A stretch of DNA of 37,547 nt from Candidatus Poseidonia sp. (GTDB lineage: Archaea > Thermoplasmatota > Poseidoniia > Poseidoniales > Poseidoniaceae). The notes beneath the pieces were generated by a model, which saw nothing but the letters and a program-made list of their open reading frames with translations, was not told the DNA's origin and ran no database searches. Below, in pieces: positions 25,501 through 36,309 of this stretch (position 1 is the stretch's first letter; the number at the start of each line of letters is the position of its first letter). The stretch is from contig JAUREJ010000017.1 in NCBI GenBank assembly GCA_030827475.1, forward strand, positions 1 to 37,547, written 5' to 3'. Made by a program: the position numbers and the translations under genes.

Positions 25501-26883
25501 TCAAACCGCCGTTTCAGTCAATCCCTCTTGCGCCCACCGCCTGGAAAGGAAACGCAAAACGATGTTTGAAAGAACCAGAAGGAGCAATCCCCCGAGGAGG
25601 GCGTTGCGAGGTGTTTGAGTAAGAAACGGCGCTCCGACAACACTAGCAATGAAGACCAAACCAAGCGCTTGGTGAAGCGTTGAAGAACGCATATCCTCCT
25701 CCAAGAAAACGGGCAAGAGCACCAAGAAGGCTGCGGCCGTGAACAATCCTGGAACAAGCAACCAGGTCGACGCTGAAAGCAGAGGGCCTGCAGCGACGGT
25801 TGACAACCAACCCATGCGAAACCACCATGCTTCAGGTCGCTGCGCTGCGTCATAACCAACCGAGGGAAGCATCATCAAGAGCCCGCATGCGAGAAAAACC
25901 AGCGAGACCAGACGCCAAGCTGTGGATGCCGCCACGGCCCCATCACCGTAGACGTGAACACGGTCCACCATGAGCCATGTCACCCAGAGCACCACGGCAG
26001 CGGCGAGCAGCAACCCAACACCCAACGTTCGGGTTTGTCTCGGGTGTTGTGAGAATCGGTGTTCAACGTCGACCAGAGGACCGTGAAACAAGGCAACGAG
26101 GGTGGCGTAACTTACGACGAGAAGGGCGGCATGGGGACGCGATACGTGCATAGGTCGAGACCACCATGCTTGGGTGAACACGTCGGTCTGAAACACGGCA
26201 AGCCACGCCAGCAAACCGGCCAACCAAGTTTTCACCAGAGCACGCGAAACGAGGAGTTTCGTGTCTTGGTTGGCGGCCATGCGGGAAGTTCCCACGAGAA
26301 CCTCGCCTCCCATCATCACGAGCAAAGTGAAAACGGCAATCCATCCCCATTCGGTCCATGCAGAAACATGCACGGTCGGAGCAGCAGGCAAGTTCGCAAG
26401 GGTGCTGTGCGCTTCAACGGGAAACAACAGCAGCATCCCCAACAACATCCAAGCGGCGTTGTGGGTCATCATGCCGATTCGAACCAAACGCATCGTCTCC
26501 TCGCTGGAAGAGCGGAGACTTGGCAGCGAGGGCGCGCCGAGAGCGAACAAAGCCAACGCCAACATGGCGCCCTCAAGGCCGCCGTAGCCGGTGAAGAGCA
26601 CCTGAAAGCGTTCCATCATGGGGGCCGACGAACCGAGGTACAACGCCACCTCGTTGTGGCTTGCCTCAAGGGTCAACACGTTCAATGCCCTGTCCGCAAT
26701 AAGCCCTGCCAGCATCAACACCGGCGCACCGAGGTAAAGACGGTGGAGCCAGGGGGTTGGGCGGAAACGAGGTTCGAGCACTCCTGCACCCAACCAGGAG
26801 AGCAACACCAACACCAGCAGGGGGAGATACCACGGGGCAGCATCCGCCAGCATGGGTCGCAACTGAACGAGGCATCCTTTCAT
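25501..26883 (-). CDS. Polytopic membrane protein, weakly CcmF-like
   Basis: The protein has about 460 residues with roughly 12 hydrophobic helices. The start at ATG 26883 (MKGCLVQLRPML) is one of several possibilities (26913 and 26853 are also in frame). The segment SAPMMERFQVLFTGYGGLEGAMLALALF, near the N-terminus, resembles the 'GxEGSxLLW' part of CcmF-type haem lyases, and a helix pair ending VSRPHAALLVVSY sits where such proteins carry a haem-handling His. The diagnostic Trp-rich WWD motif is not present, so the relation is only a suggestion. It could equally be an unrelated transporter-like protein. The gene is divergent from the methyltransferase with only about 41 nt between starts. 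Confidence 0.75.
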   Translation of the reverse strand: MKGCLVQLRPMLADAAPWYLPLLVLVLLSWLGAGVLEPRFRPTPWLHRLYLGAPVLMLAGLIADRALNVLTLEASHNEVALYLGSSAPMMERFQVLFTGYGGLEGAMLALALFALGAPSLPSLRSSSEETMRLVRIGMMTHNAAWMLLGMLLLFPVEAHSTLANLPAAPTVHVSAWTEWGWIAVFTLLVMMGGEVLVGTSRMAANQDTKLLVSRALVKTWLAGLLAWLAVFQTDVFTQAWWSRPMHVSRPHAALLVVSYATLVALFHGPLVDVEHRFSQHPRQTRTLGVGLLLAAAVVLWVTWLMVDRVHVYGDGAVAASTAWRLVSLVFLACGLLMMLPSVGYDAAQRPEAWWFRMGWLSTVAAGPLLSASTWLLVPGLFTAAAFLVLLPVFLEEDMRSSTLHQALGLVFIASVVGAPFLTQTPRNALLGGLLLLVLSNIVLRFLSRRWAQEGLTETAV

Positions 26884-26924
26884 CGTGGCGGAAGACCAAA
26901 AGAGGCGTTGCATGACCAAGGAGC

Positions 26925-28688
26925 GTGAGGGGAAGGGACATCGCCGAGCAGGAGCGAGCGGACGCCGCTCGGCACTCACCTCTCACGGCCCTCGTCGGCC
27001 ATCTCGGTCGCGACCGGGAGGCTTGGCTCGAAACCGCTCTCGCCCCGCTGCCGGAAACCTTCCGCATCAGCCTTCATCGTACAGACCGGACCTGGACCGT
27101 GGAACAGGTCAAGTCGTTCGGAGCGGAGGCCATCCCTTGGATGGCTGAAGAAACGGCATTCACGATGCCGTTTGAACGGGGAAAGGCAACGGGTGATGCT
27201 GGACGAATGATGGCGTTGCTCCACGAAACGGGCCGCATAACCCGGCAAGAAGCGGCAAGCATGCTCCCCGTTCGGATGTTGGATGATGAAGCGAACCGTT
27301 TGGTTCTCGACCTGTGTGCCGCACCGGGTTCAAAGACCACACAAGTCGCCGAGAAACTTCACCCCGACGGTGTGGTCATCGCCAACGAACCCGTCTCAGG
27401 CCGGTTGAACATGCTGGTGAGCAATCGCAGCAGACTAGGTCTTGCGAACGTGGTGGTCACGCAACACGACGGACGGCACTTTGCTCGCCTGCCTCCGCCG
27501 GGGGTCGACGCCGTTCTCGCTGACGTACCCTGCACAGGCACGGCAACGACGAGAAAAAACAGGGATGTTTGGTGGCAGTGGACGCCCAAAGAAGGACGGA
27601 AGATGTTCACCATGCAGGTTGAAATTGCGAGCCGGGGCGTTGGTTTACTGGTTCCCGGTGGCGAACTGATCTATTCCACTTGCAGCGTGGACCCGGTCGA
27701 AAACGAGGCCGTGGTCGCTGAACTGCTTCGACGCCACCCGTTTCTTGAGGTTGAAACCGTTGAAATTCCCGGGCTCACCCTCCATAAGGGGCTGAATCAA
27801 TGGCCGTTGTTGAACGAAGACGGCTCGCTTTGCGACGAAGACGATGCAGAAGGTTTGCCCTTTTTCGCAGACCACCATCGCTCGCCGACTGACCGATTGC
27901 AGCGGGGTCTGGGTGAGCAGGAAAACGAAGTACGCATCGCTGAGGCTTTGCTCGGTTGCGGTCGTCTCTGGCATGAAGACCACAACACGGGGGGGTTCTT
28001 CGTCGCTAAACTCCGGCACCGAGGCGATGCATCGCCTGAGGGGACGGCTGCCGCCTACCGTTCAAGACGCGCCGTTCGCAACTCAACGGACTGGACTCCG
28101 CCGTTGAAACGGCTACCACCGGTGACCGTGAACACGGTCGTGGAGGCCGAAAAAGCGGTGCTAAGCACCGTTGAAACGCTGTACGGCATGGATTTGAGCA
28201 GTTTTTCAGTATGGCAGCGAGGAAAGCGCCTCAACATCGCACCCCCGATGGTGAAACGGCGCTTGTTTGACCCCCCGTCGCCAACCAACAAGGGCGATGT
28301 GTGGCCCGGTGGAAGTTTTCATCCGATGCGCGTCGCGCATGTTGGCCTGCCGGCTTTCACACTGAAAAAAGATTCATGGCGTTCTCGACAAGAGGCCGTT
28401 TACGTGCTTCGAGACAAGTTCACGGCCAACATCACCGACGTCACCGAGGATGTTTTCGTACGTCTTTTGTGCGGATGGGCCCCCCTGCTTGAGGAGTTTG
28501 AGGAGGCAACAGGATTGGACAACCTCCCCTCCGGTGCTTTCCTCTTCAAGGCCGAGGTTTCCTTCGGCGAAGAGGTCCTGTCCGTCTGGCTTGGCGCTCG
28601 CGTGACCTTGATGGTGGACCTCAACGAACAGAACATTTTGCGCCGAAAATTGGGCTTGCCGTGGCGAGACGAGGAGGAAGCAGCATGA
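26925..28688 (+). CDS. RsmB/NOP2/Sun-family RNA (cytosine-5)-methyltransferase, NSUN2/Trm4-like
   Basis: The protein has 587 residues and a GTG start at 26925; the frame is closed 10 nt upstream, so no earlier start exists. The Rossmann core includes the SAM-binding LDLCAAPGSKTTQVAE (about 128-143), DVPCTGTATTRKN with Cys203, and YSTCSVDPVENEAVV with Cys253. The two Cys act in catalysis and product release in this family. The C-terminal 250 residues (from about 340) are unusually long and include a PUA-like region that would grip the RNA. The NSUN2/Trm4 branch methylates tRNA at C48/C49 and nearby. Length and C-terminal extension fit this branch better than the short archaeal enzymes. The stop overlaps the next start (ATGA). 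Confidence 0.9.
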   Translation: MRGRDIAEQERADAARHSPLTALVGHLGRDREAWLETALAPLPETFRISLHRTDRTWTVEQVKSFGAEAIPWMAEETAFTMPFERGKATGDAGRMMALLHETGRITRQEAASMLPVRMLDDEANRLVLDLCAAPGSKTTQVAEKLHPDGVVIANEPVSGRLNMLVSNRSRLGLANVVVTQHDGRHFARLPPPGVDAVLADVPCTGTATTRKNRDVWWQWTPKEGRKMFTMQVEIASRGVGLLVPGGELIYSTCSVDPVENEAVVAELLRRHPFLEVETVEIPGLTLHKGLNQWPLLNEDGSLCDEDDAEGLPFFADHHRSPTDRLQRGLGEQENEVRIAEALLGCGRLWHEDHNTGGFFVAKLRHRGDASPEGTAAAYRSRRAVRNSTDWTPPLKRLPPVTVNTVVEAEKAVLSTVETLYGMDLSSFSVWQRGKRLNIAPPMVKRRLFDPPSPTNKGDVWPGGSFHPMRVAHVGLPAFTLKKDSWRSRQEAVYVLRDKFTANITDVTEDVFVRLLCGWAPLLEEFEEATGLDNLPSGAFLFKAEVSFGEEVLSVWLGARVTLMVDLNEQNILRRKLGLPWRDEEEAA

Positions 28689-31232: not shown

Positions 31233-32213
31233 ATGGTAGCAGAAGATACGGTGTTCTCTGTTCTGTATGATAAGTTCATGTTTTGGTCCATCCTCGTAGG
31301 CATCTTCACCTTTGGGTGGATGTTTCTGGCCATGATTCGCTACCGGGACGGCGTTGAACCCGACACGACCCATTTGGACCACATCGAAGTTGGCTCCTTC
31401 CCTGTCGATCGGCACCACACCACCCTCGAGGTGTTCTTTTACGTCCTACCAACGCTCATCGTGGCGTGGTTGGTCGTCCTCGCTCTTTCCTCCAACGTTG
31501 CCGTTTGGACCTTTGATGCCGACGATGAAGACGTTCACAACATGGAAATTACTGGAAAACAATGGTTTTGGGAATACAAGTACCAAGACAGCCTCACGTG
31601 GGAAGATGACCCTTCCCTCACCGGGATTGACGTGACCTGGTCGGGCACCACCCTTAGTGTGGCAAGCACCAACCCAGAGGCCGTGAACATCTCGTGGTCC
31701 AAGGACGGAACCAGCGGAACCGGTGTCTTGGACCAGCTAACAGGCTTGGAAGAGCTTGACGAAGTTTTCAATCCCTTCCTCTATTCCACCGTGCACGTTA
31801 CGGATGCCGAGGGCACCTTGCTCCACACCTGGATGCACATTCCAGCCAATCACGTCTTTTCCTCTGCACTCGGCGAGGACATGATTCTCCCTTGCGACCA
31901 GCAAGTCATCTTTGAGATGCACTCCAAGCCTCATGATGACTCCAACCCCAACTATGTCGGCGTTCAACATTCCTTCTGGCTGCCCGAGTGGGGCGTGAAA
32001 GAAGACTTGGTCCCCGGCATCGAGGGCGGCACCTACATGACCATCATGGCCGACGACCCCGGCACCTACCCCATTCGTTGCGCCGAATACTGCGGCAACC
32101 AACACTCGTTGATGATCGGCCAAGTTTCCATCGTGGCCGCCGAAGGCACGGATTGTTCAACCGACACCGGCGTCAAGAAATCCGGTGACGACGGCGACGG
32201 AGGTGACTACTGA
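31233..32213 (+). CDS. coxB: Cytochrome c oxidase subunit II with complete CuA site
   Basis: The protein has 326 residues, with two transmembrane helices (about 16-36 and 66-87) and an external cupredoxin domain. KQWFWEYKY at 109-117 is the conserved aromatic electron-transfer patch. The CuA ligands are all there: H246 (GVQHSFWLPEWGVK) and CAEYCGNQHSLM with C283, E285, C287, H291 and M294. Electrons enter here from a soluble or anchored donor; no donor gene is visible in the window. About 130 residues separate the aromatic patch and H246, roughly 90 more than usual, forming an extra external segment rich in Ser, Thr and Asp. It is the first gene of the operon; its stop overlaps the coxA start by 1 nt (TGATG). 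Confidence 0.95.
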   Translation: MVAEDTVFSVLYDKFMFWSILVGIFTFGWMFLAMIRYRDGVEPDTTHLDHIEVGSFPVDRHHTTLEVFFYVLPTLIVAWLVVLALSSNVAVWTFDADDEDVHNMEITGKQWFWEYKYQDSLTWEDDPSLTGIDVTWSGTTLSVASTNPEAVNISWSKDGTSGTGVLDQLTGLEELDEVFNPFLYSTVHVTDAEGTLLHTWMHIPANHVFSSALGEDMILPCDQQVIFEMHSKPHDDSNPNYVGVQHSFWLPEWGVKEDLVPGIEGGTYMTIMADDPGTYPIRCAEYCGNQHSLMIGQVSIVAAEGTDCSTDTGVKKSGDDGDGGDY

Positions 32214-34555
32214 TGCGCGGCCGTGTTGCAACCTTGCTTGGCGTGCTGCTCATCGCCTTGTTGGCAGCCCCCCAGTTCACGGCTGCTCCAGCCGGCATTG
32301 GCTCAGCCGGCGACCAAGGGTGTACCTGTCACGGCGGAGCCTCCCCCGACACGACGGTGTTGGTCGACGGCCTTCCACAATCCTACAACGCCAGCGAAAC
32401 GTACTCCTTCACGGTGACCGTTGTCAACGATGCAATGGAACTGTACAACGGCGGTTCCCTCGAGGGTGATGACCCGTGGAACGGCCGCGCCGGAGGTTAC
32501 CGCATCCTCGTGTCCCACGGCGAGGTCGTCGCCGTGCCCGAATCCCAAGGCCAGGTCATGGACGATGGGTTAACGCACACCGAGGAAAGCAACACCGTCC
32601 GCTCGTGGACGTTTGAATGGACGGCTCCTGCAGCCGACGACCTCAACGTCGAAATGACGGTCTACGGAAACGCCGTCAACGGAGGCTCGGGCTCTGGAGG
32701 CGATTACTGGAATGTCGCTCAGTTGGATATCCCCGGCGTCAATGCCGGTGCCGTCGCTGCAAGCGCAAGTGCGCTGATCATCTTCCTGACGTCGATCGGC
32801 CTTGCTGCTGGCCTCATCTTTGCAGGCGTGTTGTGGGTCTTCTACCGTCGCTCTCCGGAGACGTTCACCATGGAACGGTTCTGGGGCTTCCTCAAGCCCT
32901 GGTTGACCACCACCGACCACAAACAGGTCGGTATCATGTACTTCCTCTTCGGCTTCTTCTTCTTCCTCGTCGGCGGTTTGCTCGCACTCCTCTTCCGGAT
33001 TCAGCTCGCCCTGCCCGAGAACGACTTCTTGACCTACGATGAATACAACTCCTTCTTCACCCTCCACGGAACCACGATGATTTTCTTGGCCGCCATGCCC
33101 ATGATCGCCGGGTTCATGAACTACGTTCTCCCGCTCCAAATCGGAGCAAAGGACCTTGCCTTCCCCCGAATCAACGCCATGGGCCTGTGGTTGTTGGTGT
33201 TCTCCGCCCCGTTGATCTTCACGGGCATCTGGTCGGGCGAAGGAGCCGATATCACGTGGGTGATGTACCCGCCCTATTCCTCCTTGAACGAAGCAAACCT
33301 CGGTTCGACGATGGCTGATTACGGCTCAAACCCCGGGACAACGGCGTTCATCTCCGGCATGATGATGCTCGGTGCATCCTCCACGCTCGGCGGTGTCAAC
33401 TTCATCACCACCGTCTTTACCATGCGTGCCCCCGGCGTAACCTGGATGAAGATGCCTTTGTTCTCGTGGTCGGTCTTCATCAGCGTGTTCATGCTCTTCA
33501 TGTCCCTGCCTGCGCTCATCATTGGTGTGGCGTTCCTGCTGTTCGACCACACCATCGGCACGCAATTCTTCGTCGCTGGAGGTGACCCCTTGCTCTTCCA
33601 GCACCTGTTCTGGTTCTTTGGCCACCCCGAAGTGTATGTGGTCATCGTTCCAGCGTTCGGTATCGTCTCCGAAGTGCTAGCGACATCAGCACGTCGGTCC
33701 ATTTTCGGCTACAAATCGATGGTTTTCGCCATGGCGGGCATCGGCATCGTTGGTTTCATCGTTTGGGGTCACCACATGCTGACCTCGGGTATGGACCCCT
33801 TCTGGCGGGCGGCTTTCATGATCACCACCATGCTCGTGGCCATCCCCACCGGAGCGAAAATCTTCAACTGGCTCGCAACGCTTTGGGGCGGCTCTTTGGT
33901 CATGAAGACCCACACCCTTTGGTCGCTGGGCTTCTTGGTGACGTTCACACTCGGCGGCATTTCAGGGATGTTCTTCCCCGTGGCCGGCCTCGATATTCAC
34001 TTCCACGATTCGTACTTCGTGGTCGCTCACTTCCACTACGTGTTCATCGGCGGAACGGTCTTCGCCCTCTTCTCCGCTGTGTACTACTGGTTCCCCAAGG
34101 CCACGGGCCGCAAGTTGAACGAGACCCTCGGCCTCTGGCACTTCCTCATCGGCTTCGCCTCCTACAACGCTGCCTTCTGGCCCATGCACGCCCTGGGCAT
34201 CATGGGCATGCCTCGCCGGACGCACACCTACACCGTCGAATCCGGCTTTGCGGAATACAACATGGCGGTCTCCACCTTCGCCTTCATCTTCGGTATTAGC
34301 CAACTTCTGTTGGTTTGGAACATCCTCTATTCCTCTCGTCGCGGAGAGCCCGTGGGTAAGGACCCGTGGGGCGGTTGGTCCCTTGAGTGGTCCACCACTT
34401 CGCCCCCACCAACGCCTTCCTTCCATGACATCCCCACACAGGGCGACATGAACATCGAGCACGGCCATCACAAGGACGAGCCTTCACTGATGGACCGGTT
34501 GCTCAAAGCCGAGCCGAAAGGAATGGTCGTCGGCCAACTGGAGGGAGAAGAATGA
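32213..34555 (+). CDS. coxA: Cytochrome c oxidase subunit I (A1 type) fused to an N-terminal exported CxCH domain
   Basis: The protein has 780 residues, against about 550 for the family. GGAGGTGA lies 6 nt before the ATG. Residues 1-25 look like a signal peptide. Residues 30-175 form a beta-rich external domain containing CTCH (C37, C39, H40), resembling the 'choice-of-anchor V'/reelin-like domains that begin with a CxxCH-type motif. A helix at 184-210 leads to the normal oxidase core from about 228. Metal ligands: H285 and H608 (haem a), H606 (haem a3), H471, H520 and H521 (CuB), with Tyr475 for the His-Tyr crosslink. D314, E473 and K549 match the D- and K-channel residues of A1 oxidases. 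The enzyme reduces O2 to water and pumps protons. Confidence 0.96.
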   Translation: MRGRVATLLGVLLIALLAAPQFTAAPAGIGSAGDQGCTCHGGASPDTTVLVDGLPQSYNASETYSFTVTVVNDAMELYNGGSLEGDDPWNGRAGGYRILVSHGEVVAVPESQGQVMDDGLTHTEESNTVRSWTFEWTAPAADDLNVEMTVYGNAVNGGSGSGGDYWNVAQLDIPGVNAGAVAASASALIIFLTSIGLAAGLIFAGVLWVFYRRSPETFTMERFWGFLKPWLTTTDHKQVGIMYFLFGFFFFLVGGLLALLFRIQLALPENDFLTYDEYNSFFTLHGTTMIFLAAMPMIAGFMNYVLPLQIGAKDLAFPRINAMGLWLLVFSAPLIFTGIWSGEGADITWVMYPPYSSLNEANLGSTMADYGSNPGTTAFISGMMMLGASSTLGGVNFITTVFTMRAPGVTWMKMPLFSWSVFISVFMLFMSLPALIIGVAFLLFDHTIGTQFFVAGGDPLLFQHLFWFFGHPEVYVVIVPAFGIVSEVLATSARRSIFGYKSMVFAMAGIGIVGFIVWGHHMLTSGMDPFWRAAFMITTMLVAIPTGAKIFNWLATLWGGSLVMKTHTLWSLGFLVTFTLGGISGMFFPVAGLDIHFHDSYFVVAHFHYVFIGGTVFALFSAVYYWFPKATGRKLNETLGLWHFLIGFASYNAAFWPMHALGIMGMPRRTHTYTVESGFAEYNMAVSTFAFIFGISQLLLVWNILYSSRRGEPVGKDPWGGWSLEWSTTSPPPTPSFHDIPTQGDMNIEHGHHKDEPSLMDRLLKAEPKGMVVGQLEGEE

Positions 34556-35922
34556 GCGGTGGAGAAGCGCACGTGGAAAACAGCATTTGGATGCGAGCCG
34601 TGCTGTTCGGTGGCGTCTTTGTGGCCATCGGTCTGCTCGCTTTTGCAACGATGGGTGTCGGTATCGCCAACGTCAAGCACGTCGCTTATGAAGACGCCAT
34701 CCACGAATACGAGGACGCCAAGTATGCCTACGAGAACGCCAAGGCCAACAACGCCAGCGACGTTGATATAAGCGCCCTCAAGGAAGCCAAAGACTTTGCT
34801 CACGAAGACGAAGTTAAAGCCCACCTGTCCTACCTCACCTGGCGAACAGCGGGCATCACCATTCTCTTGATGTGTTTCACCTACGCCTCCTTCATCGGTT
34901 TGGGCGGTTTCCTCAACTCGGTCTTCCCTGACGACCACGGTCATGACAACCACGGGTACGGTGGCGACGACCACGAGCACCACGGCTCGGGTTCACCCAT
35001 CGTCTTCTCCTTGGGCATCATGCTCTTCCTGATGGGTTTTCCCTCGTTCCAAGCCACCCTCGGCAACATGCTCTCGGGCGTGGATGCTGACCTCGGCGAC
35101 CTCGGATTGAGCATGATCGGACTTCTGTTCGTGACCGCTGGCGTTGCAAATTGGTGGCGTGAAGACCTTCCGTTCATCGGCAACAACGAGCAAATTGCGA
35201 CGGAAACTGACGAATGGTTTGCTGGCGAGCACATTCGAAAAGCCGGTTTATGGGTCTTTATCATGTCCGAAGTGATGGTTTTCGCGACCTTCTTTTCCTC
35301 CTACCTTCGCATGCGTACCGAATGGTGTACCGAATGGCAAGTAAGGGATGGAAACGAAAATTGTGCAGCCGTTGACACCCTGACCGCCTCGGATTTCCTG
35401 CGTCCCAACGGGGGTACGCTGGACGGGCTTGGCGGAACAGGCGACTTCATGACCCTGTTGCCGGGCGCAATCAACACCTTTGCACTCATCATCTCTTCCT
35501 ACACCATCGTGCTGGCACTCAAGACGGCCAAAAGCAAGGACTGGCAAGCACCGACCGGCAAGCTCGGAAAAATCATGCCTACCAAGAAGGCCGCCGTTCG
35601 CAACTACCTCATCGCCACCTTCCTGCTCGGTTCGATGTTTATCGTCTTGAAACTCGTTGAGTGGAGCCACTTGGTCGCTGAAGGATTCACCATCGGCGCC
35701 GCCGGTACGACGGGACAAGCAGCCTCCATCTTCTACGTCGCCACGGGAGCACACGGACTTCACGTCTTCATCGGGTTGCTGGTCATGCTCTACCTGATCT
35801 TCAAGGCCGATACGGTTGGCTACGATGAGAAGAACGGACAAGGTATCGAATACTTCGGGCTGTACTGGCACTTTGTGGACTTGGCTTGGGTGGTCATCTT
35901 CCCAGCCTTCTATCTGTATTGA
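34552..35922 (+). CDS. coxC: Cytochrome c oxidase subunit III with long N-terminal extension
   Basis: The protein has 456 residues; the usual length is 200-270. It overlaps coxA by 4 nt (ATGA) with GGAGG upstream. The C-terminal half is standard subunit III: EHIRKAGLWVFIMSEVMVF from about 226, GAINTFALIISSYT, ATGAHGLHVFIGLLVMLY, and the end YWHFVDLAWVVIFPAFYLY. The N-terminal 220 residues hold a transmembrane helix (about 14-38), a charged Ala/Glu/Lys helix (about 42-95), a second membrane helix (about 98-122), a His/Asp loop with six His (127-144), and two more hydrophobic helices (about 149-169 and 183-201). The His loop could bind copper or zinc; that is inference. Confidence 0.94.
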   Translation: MSGGEAHVENSIWMRAVLFGGVFVAIGLLAFATMGVGIANVKHVAYEDAIHEYEDAKYAYENAKANNASDVDISALKEAKDFAHEDEVKAHLSYLTWRTAGITILLMCFTYASFIGLGGFLNSVFPDDHGHDNHGYGGDDHEHHGSGSPIVFSLGIMLFLMGFPSFQATLGNMLSGVDADLGDLGLSMIGLLFVTAGVANWWREDLPFIGNNEQIATETDEWFAGEHIRKAGLWVFIMSEVMVFATFFSSYLRMRTEWCTEWQVRDGNENCAAVDTLTASDFLRPNGGTLDGLGGTGDFMTLLPGAINTFALIISSYTIVLALKTAKSKDWQAPTGKLGKIMPTKKAAVRNYLIATFLLGSMFIVLKLVEWSHLVAEGFTIGAAGTTGQAASIFYVATGAHGLHVFIGLLVMLYLIFKADTVGYDEKNGQGIEYFGLYWHFVDLAWVVIFPAFYLY

Positions 35923-35931
35923 GGTGAGAAA

Positions 35932-36309
35932 ATGGGAGAACACGAAACATCTGGAATCTTTGAATCGTTGGTTGAGAAACTGCCGGGAAACTTTGACATC
36001 TACTTTTGGAACTTCGTCATCCTGATGATTTTCACCGTCTTTGAAGTCGCCGCAGTCTTCTTTGACACAATCCCCCTTTCCGCCGTTTGGGCCATTCTCA
36101 TCGGTGTAGGCATCGTCAAGGGCTACGGCATCGCAGCCTACTTCATGCACTTGAAGGGAGACCCGCGGGTGTACACCCGCACGGCCCTCTTCCCCGTCTT
36201 GTTCGTGCTGCTCATGCTCTGGGGAATCGGCCTCTCCAATCCAGGTGCGGTCGGTGACCTCCCCGCTTGGTGTACACCGTTCTCCGACGGTTACGCAACG
36301 CGACGTTAA
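35932..36309 (+). CDS. coxD: Cytochrome c oxidase subunit IV (prokaryotic CoxIV family)
   Basis: The protein has 125 residues with three transmembrane helices at about 27-44, 49-71 and 84-100. The middle helix ends in VKGYGIAAYFMHLKGD, the signature of the small bacterial/archaeal oxidase subunit IV that packs against subunits I and III and helps stability. A very good Shine-Dalgarno, GAGGTGA, lies 4 nt before the ATG. The gene follows coxC by 9 nt and precedes the Sco-like gene by 12 nt, so it is within the operon. Confidence 0.9.
   Translation: MGEHETSGIFESLVEKLPGNFDIYFWNFVILMIFTVFEVAAVFFDTIPLSAVWAILIGVGIVKGYGIAAYFMHLKGDPRVYTRTALFPVLFVLLMLWGIGLSNPGAVGDLPAWCTPFSDGYATRR

Follow-up and report, generated by a model that had tools for sequence, protein, structure and literature searches.

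A probable beta-sandwich c-type cytochrome domain fused to oxidase subunit I in Marine Group II archaea

Cytochrome f folds as a beta-sandwich; its haem c motif lies close to the start of the mature protein, and its C terminus is anchored in the membrane. The caa3 oxidases are haem-copper oxidases that have a CuA subunit and carry a cytochrome c domain, covalently attached, from which electrons could pass to CuA; in B. subtilis this domain stands at the C-terminal end of subunit II (PMC9145763). Haem c sites are described in part of a review (PMC7096707) as critically dependent on adjacent Cys and His, with a maturation process that tolerates longer gaps, and the same text mentions a Kuenenia tetrahaem protein in which one haem site is contracted to CKCH (Ferousi et al. 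2019). Marine Group II archaea are described as globally abundant, and Tully 2019 (PMC6336850) states that most possess cytochrome b and Rieske proteins and lack canonical bc1 genes. A 2015 survey of archaeal cytochromes c reported finds in Thermoplasmatales single-cell genomes, and in its text the terms 'Marine Group II' and 'CXCH' never occur (PMC4429474). Here, we analysed a 37,547-nt stretch (the window) from Candidatus Poseidonia sp. (contig JAUREJ010000017.1, positions 1 to 37,547), in which the gene for cytochrome c oxidase subunit I, CoxA, begins with an exported domain carrying a CxCH motif.

The oxidase genes of the window were arranged in the order CoxB, CoxA, CoxC, CoxD, all on the + strand (Table 1). 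An earlier note, made from the DNA letters alone, had described the first 210 or so residues of CoxA as something other than oxidase, made up of a signal peptide, a beta-rich exported domain and an extra helix, and had named choice-of-anchor V and Reeler as families to check. This description held throughout: the COX1 match began only at residue 239, residues 1-25 looked like a signal peptide on inspection, and hydropathy together with secondary structure placed the helix at residues ~187-213, about 6 nt beyond the end first given for it. The domain itself matched the NCBI family NF041895 (choice_anch_V) over CoxA residues 19-171 (E 6.9e-24), scoring 84.6 bits with residues 1-218 and 80.8 bits with the whole of CoxA against a curated cut-off of 42, and is therefore a family member, one of six over the cut-off in this genome. 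The family name implies varied anchors, and its NCBIfam entry mentions neither haem nor an oxidase fusion. A search of an open-access collection found no paper using the name 'choice-of-anchor V', and in the part of that collection surveyed no paper was presented as describing the domain as a cytochrome, or the subunit I fusion.

The N-terminal region of CoxA is probably a beta-sandwich c-type cytochrome domain that serves as an electron-entry module on subunit I. From the genes, motifs, conservation and neighbourhoods observed, we infer haem attachment, the haem ligands and an electron path. After export, system I (CcmABC/CcmF) would attach haem to C37 and C39, with H40 as the proximal ligand and H122 probably as the distal one, while helix 187-213 would hold the domain on the outer face. 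The N terminus normally lies inside, and a domain exported from there requires one more membrane pass, which this helix would provide; by the positive-inside rule the helix would run from outside to inside, leaving the oxidase core in its usual orientation. Electrons would reach the domain either with a mobile carrier, most likely a plastocyanin-like copper protein, or straight from a complex III-like assembly through the choice-of-anchor V paralogue encoded there, and would move on from the haem c of the domain to CuA of CoxB, then to haem a and finally to haem a3-CuB. The proposed role is that of the caa3 cytochrome c domain, on another subunit and with another fold: unlike in caa3, the domain is at the N terminus of subunit I and is predicted to be a beta-sandwich with a CxCH site. 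Since a search of CoxB for a C-x(1-4)-CH haem c motif found none, the enzyme is not a caa3 oxidase. The docking site for an electron donor suggested in the earlier note is compatible with electron entry and partly contained in it.

The fusion is genuine. Domain and oxidase core were found in a single match in 32 of 39 Poseidoniales (Marine Group II) genomes, including that of the window, with CoxA broken at contig ends in three others (G016, G025, G028) and not assembled in the remaining four (G002, G003, G013, G019). The closest named locus, from a metagenome-assembled genome (MAG) of Poseidonia sp., was 96% identical over the domain. The same fusion occurred in independent assemblies such as the Marine Group II chromosome CM001443.1 (L167), in a family of another order within the class (L135) and in divergent oxidases (L050, L115, L199, L205). 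An apparently unfused CoxA in G028 ended at a contig edge, and among the matches listed the sole further core-only pieces were one in G017 (residues 417-780), which had a fused piece on another contig, and one in G005, described below. A domain alignment of 131 rows, obtained after dropping duplicate, short and X-rich rows, held 58 fused CoxA and 73 other sequences; these 58 distinct fused rows and the independent assemblies rule out a sequencing error or mis-joined genes. None of the relatives looked at encoded the domain on its own, upstream of a Poseidoniales CoxA, and both grounds on which the earlier note would have withdrawn the fusion failed as far as these genomes reach. A domain tree (90 rows, 136 columns) was poorly resolved and required the CoxA label to change nine times, in part through several truncated CoxA sequences that had been entered as 'other', and it does not decide between a single and a repeated origin of the fusion. 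Two further loci were recorded in this survey. In G029 (L049:8654-11578), the gene directly after a second, divergent oxidase with the same fused domain encoded a family member on its own, with a hydrophobic stretch at its C-terminal end. A core-only COX1 on an 8.6-kb contig (L051:1266-2942, G005 contig 6) had, by eye, a mitochondrial-looking start and is likely a contaminant of the MAG.

The cytochrome b/c1 polyprotein of Bradyrhizobium is cleaved after translation, and the CoxA product might likewise be cut, so that the cytochrome-like domain and helix would come away from the oxidase core and work as an independent cytochrome in the membrane. A signal peptide and a potential anchor helix belong to the domain, and separate anchored family members exist, one of them directly downstream of the fused second oxidase (L049: 10931-11578). 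We nevertheless regard such processing as unlikely, though it fares best among the alternatives, since the core regains its usual orientation through the helix, a point in favour of a stable fusion, and a split gene was not seen among the relatives examined.

The proposed attachment site lies in the sequence GDQGCTCHGG (residues 33-42), and C37 and C39 are the sole cysteines among the 780 residues of CoxA. Across the alignment the second cysteine and the histidine after it were invariant (131/131 rows), and the first cysteine was 98% conserved (130 rows with a letter). All 58 fused CoxA rows had CX1CH, and all 58 had histidine at the distal position, which was also histidine in 53 of the 73 other members (48 in the column and five with TH shifted by two columns). 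CoxA thus has CTCH in place of canonical CxxCH, and CxxCH and longer spacings were found in homologues: CGGCH (CX2CH) and CX4CH variants, further CX2CH and one CX6CH among the best family hits, and, in three other lineages, four proteins with CX3CH or CX4CH, one scoring over the family cut-off and three below it. As the CH end is constant while the gap varies, haem c attachment fits better than a CxC metal chelate. The earlier note had doubted covalent haem on the ground that CxCH is one residue too short. That doubt loses its force with the Kuenenia CKCH motif, reported to bind haem c (PMC7096707, in part), with a spacing that varies around a preserved CH, and with the association of the family with assembly genes described below. 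The Kuenenia protein differs in being multihaem, bacterial and part of the hydrazine synthase apparatus. A Rieske-type [2Fe-2S] site, in which box II is also CxCH, was rejected because the domain has only two cysteines and no box I. In an Ignavibacteriae MAG (L221:5881-7125), a bacterial relative with CTCH and an LTHN histidine showed that the CxCH form is not confined to archaea.

Cytochrome c assembly genes (PF01578) were over cut-off in all 39 genomes. In the genome of the window they included an 853-aa CcmF-type protein and a CcmC-type protein adjoining a CcmA-like ABC ATPase, on which the maturation machinery is taken to be present. PF13442 was over cut-off in none of the 39 genomes and PF00034 in one (G019, one contig), with no hit to either in the genome of the window, and these two class I cytochrome c profiles matched neither CoxA nor its N-terminal domain. 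Plastocyanin-type copper domains were over cut-off in 37 of the 39 genomes, although part of the genomes in the second family (f2) had them solely inside very long frames, and small proteins of this type are the likely mobile electron carrier. Co-occurrence was evaluated in 389 genomes drawn from the phylum, 134 from the same class and 255 others. Within the class, the family was present in 134/134 genomes and PF01578 in 133/134. Among the other 255 genomes, the family was present in 34 and PF01578 in 43, with both in 24 against about six expected (Fisher p 1.5e-14), and the 14 strongest family matches outside the class were all in PF01578 genomes. The best family hit was checked for the motif in 30 of the 34 genomes, comprising the 10 that lack PF01578 and 20 of the 24 that have it (G064, G073, G078 and G392 were omitted); CX1-4CH was present in 15 of the 20 PF01578 genomes versus none of the 10 without. 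Among four genomes picked because their family hits lay near PF01578, three (G267, G308, G372) had family genes only a few genes away from multihaem cytochromes and a CcmF-like gene, and in the fourth (G259) a CcmF/CcsA-like gene was similarly near. A 492-aa multi-pass membrane protein of the window (25504-26979, - strand) was considered as a maturation gene and set aside, having no NCBIfam match and no Pfam match above cut-off.

Another family member was encoded alongside Rieske and cytochrome b. In the genome of the window, a choice-of-anchor V protein of 276 aa that is hydrophobic towards its C terminus came first, and after it a short membrane-type ORF, a Rieske protein (TIGR01416 E 1.2e-9, 38.5 bits, below the 97.4 cut-off, and without a Pfam hit) and a split cytochrome b, so that cytochrome b and Rieske genes stood together as in bc1/b6f complexes. 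The paralogue lay upstream of cytochrome b on the same strand, with 1.8-2.5 kb between listed positions, in 34 of the 37 genomes having both; in the other three the two were on different contigs, and 2 of the 39 genomes lacked both. In 29 of 30 fetched loci a protein with both Rieske boxes adjoined cytochrome b, and the remaining locus began at a contig end. The order family member, Rieske, cytochrome b recurred in G372, a distant member of the phylum, with a CX6CH family protein of 55 bits. The locus concerned (L271, 1-18505) ended with Rieske and cytochrome b and also contained multihaem cytochromes and a CcmF-like gene; its three choice-of-anchor V proteins had CX3CH, CX4CH and CX6CH, and only the last was over the family cut-off. 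The Poseidoniales paralogue would stand in for cytochrome c1 or f. Like cytochrome f, this paralogue is encoded with Rieske and cytochrome b, and with cytochrome f it would share a beta-sandwich fold, a haem c motif close to the start of the mature protein and a membrane anchor at the C terminus, whereas Reeler domains are nearer in fold, the motif here is CxCH and a distal histidine is likely.

These neighbourhoods also bear on a metal other than haem iron. C37, C39, H40 and H122 could form a Cys2His2 site for copper (or zinc), which would deliver copper to CuA/CuB or tune assembly; the conserved residues would suit a soft metal and the exported domain would be on the CuA-loading side, if the side is placed correctly. 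We consider this improbable, slightly more so than proteolytic processing. Spacings of CX1, CX2, CX3, CX4 and CX6 in relatives are hard for a CxC chelate to tolerate, the family tracks cytochrome c assembly genes and adjoins Rieske/cytochrome b and multihaem cytochromes, and the genes that accompany one of the conserved copies are those of Rieske and cytochrome b, not of a copper oxidase. The copper-delivery site put forward in the earlier note gained no positive evidence in the analysis.

Several observations weigh against a cytochrome domain at the start of CoxA. An orthologue group beside transhydrogenase genes retained CxCH and had glutamine at the distal position in 13/13 rows, for which a five-coordinate or otherwise altered site is possible, and seven distant rows had Tyr, Ser, Arg, Val or Ala there. 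Five of the 20 PF01578 genomes lacked CX1-4CH in their best hit (one single-Cys TCH, one CX6CH and three without a motif), and the hits in genomes without PF01578 were weak, began past the motif region and may be false members. Co-occurrence of the family with PF01578 may partly reflect kinship and respiratory lifestyle, and as these are confounded the numbers are support and not proof. With hits accepted up to E 0.1, PF13442 appeared in 7 of the 39 genomes and PF00034 in three, and as the cytochrome c search was confined to these two profiles the assembly genes might serve other clients. Some family members were long surface-type proteins (C49 and C55 in the genome of the window), unusual for a cytochrome. 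Finally, the full-length CoxA model (mean pLDDT 60.8) was too poor for placing the domain near CuA. Apart from these points, the transhydrogenase-adjacent member was recorded as a membrane protein in the genome of the window (L045:7372-8325, C23) and at L207-L218.

The domain alone was modelled well (39 sequences, pLDDT 91.3, pTM 0.87) and is predicted to be a Reeler-like beta-sandwich. The top Foldseek matches were F-spondin Reeler domains (best 2zot, E 2e-5, TM ~0.5), the nearest solved fold. Cytochrome f (2jxm) was ranked 28th (E 8.6e-4, TM 0.48), and as it ranks among many immunoglobulin-like folds the likeness is suggestive only. The Reeler profile PF02014 scored 13.6 bits against a Pfam cut-off of 21, below membership though the folds are similar. 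A single-sequence search of the PDB with the domain gave chance matches only, and a profile search of PDB sequences gave weak matches to Spondin-1, with cytochrome f absent from its hits; in two Spondin-1 alignments the match began after the CxCH segment and the distal histidine paired with no histidine. A cytochrome c555 match to the motif region in the profile search was not counted as homology. A cofactor-free Reeler-type adhesion or docking domain, with CxC as a disulfide or thiol redox pair, would agree with the anchor-type family name, the F-spondin fold and the long surface-type members, but is very improbable, as it leaves unexplained the invariant histidine after the second cysteine (131/131 rows), the distal histidine of the fused copies and the link to assembly genes.

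Beyond the cytochrome domain proposed for CoxA, we also favour, with somewhat less confidence, a wider reading in which the choice-of-anchor V proteins form a large, so far unrecognised group of c-type cytochromes, built as beta-sandwiches and holding haem at elastic CX1-6CH sites. One copy in Marine Group II would replace cytochrome c1 in the Rieske/cytochrome b complex and another would be built into oxidase subunit I, so that much of the chain from quinol to oxygen would run through an unannotated cytochrome type. If so, this could explain how electrons reach oxygen in abundant ocean archaea that seem to be without ordinary cytochrome c: a new type of haem c domain in both complexes would close the gap left by the canonical bc1 genes and give the oxidase an entry module. 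A family named for anchors would become a testable cytochrome family, and natural CxCH haem sites would be added to the multihaem case reported so far.

Table 1. Positions of oxidase genes and CoxA features in the window
Feature	Position (nt)	Strand	Basis
CoxB, subunit II, with CuA-type motif CAEYCGNQHSLM at nt 32079-32114	31233..32213	+	Pfam COX2 E 9.5e-11
CoxA, subunit I, 780 aa, no internal stop	32213..34555	+	
Signal peptide of CoxA, residues 1-25 (approximate)	32213..32287	+	Inspection of translation; hydrophobic segment 1-29
Exported choice-of-anchor V domain (predicted Reeler-like beta-sandwich), residues 26-178 (limits approximate)	32288..32746	+	NF041895, domain model, Foldseek
CTCH motif, residues 37-40: contracted site proposed to attach haem c, with His40 as proximal ligand	32321..32332	+	Sequence; CX1CH kept in fused CoxA rows
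His122 (LTHTEE), proposed distal haem ligand	32576..32578	+	Alignment conservation
Extra transmembrane helix, residues ~187-213, then YRR	32771..32851	+	Hydropathy (segment 173-212); secondary structure of low-confidence full-length model
A1-type cytochrome c oxidase subunit I core, residues 239-692	32927..34288	+	Pfam COX1 E 8.7e-144
CoxC, subunit III, long N-terminal extension	34552..35922	+	Pfam COX3 E 1.6e-14
CoxD, subunit IV	35932..36309	+	Pfam COX4_pro E 8.1e-13

In the oxidase core, across 22 CoxA sequences, H285, H471, H520, H521, H606, H608, Y475 and D314 were invariant and K549 was at least 90% conserved. We take the six histidines to be the haem a, haem a3 and CuB ligands, and assign the roles of the other core residues and the A1 type on the same assumption; the CoxB motif is presumably the CuA site. 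CoxA scored 636.7 bits with TIGR02891 (CtaD_CoxA), below the equivalog cut-off of 670.75, and as a divergent member it was not filed as a TIGR02891 equivalog. In CoxC (456 aa), the N-terminal extension contained a His-rich loop, and the best COX3 stretch began at residue 345.

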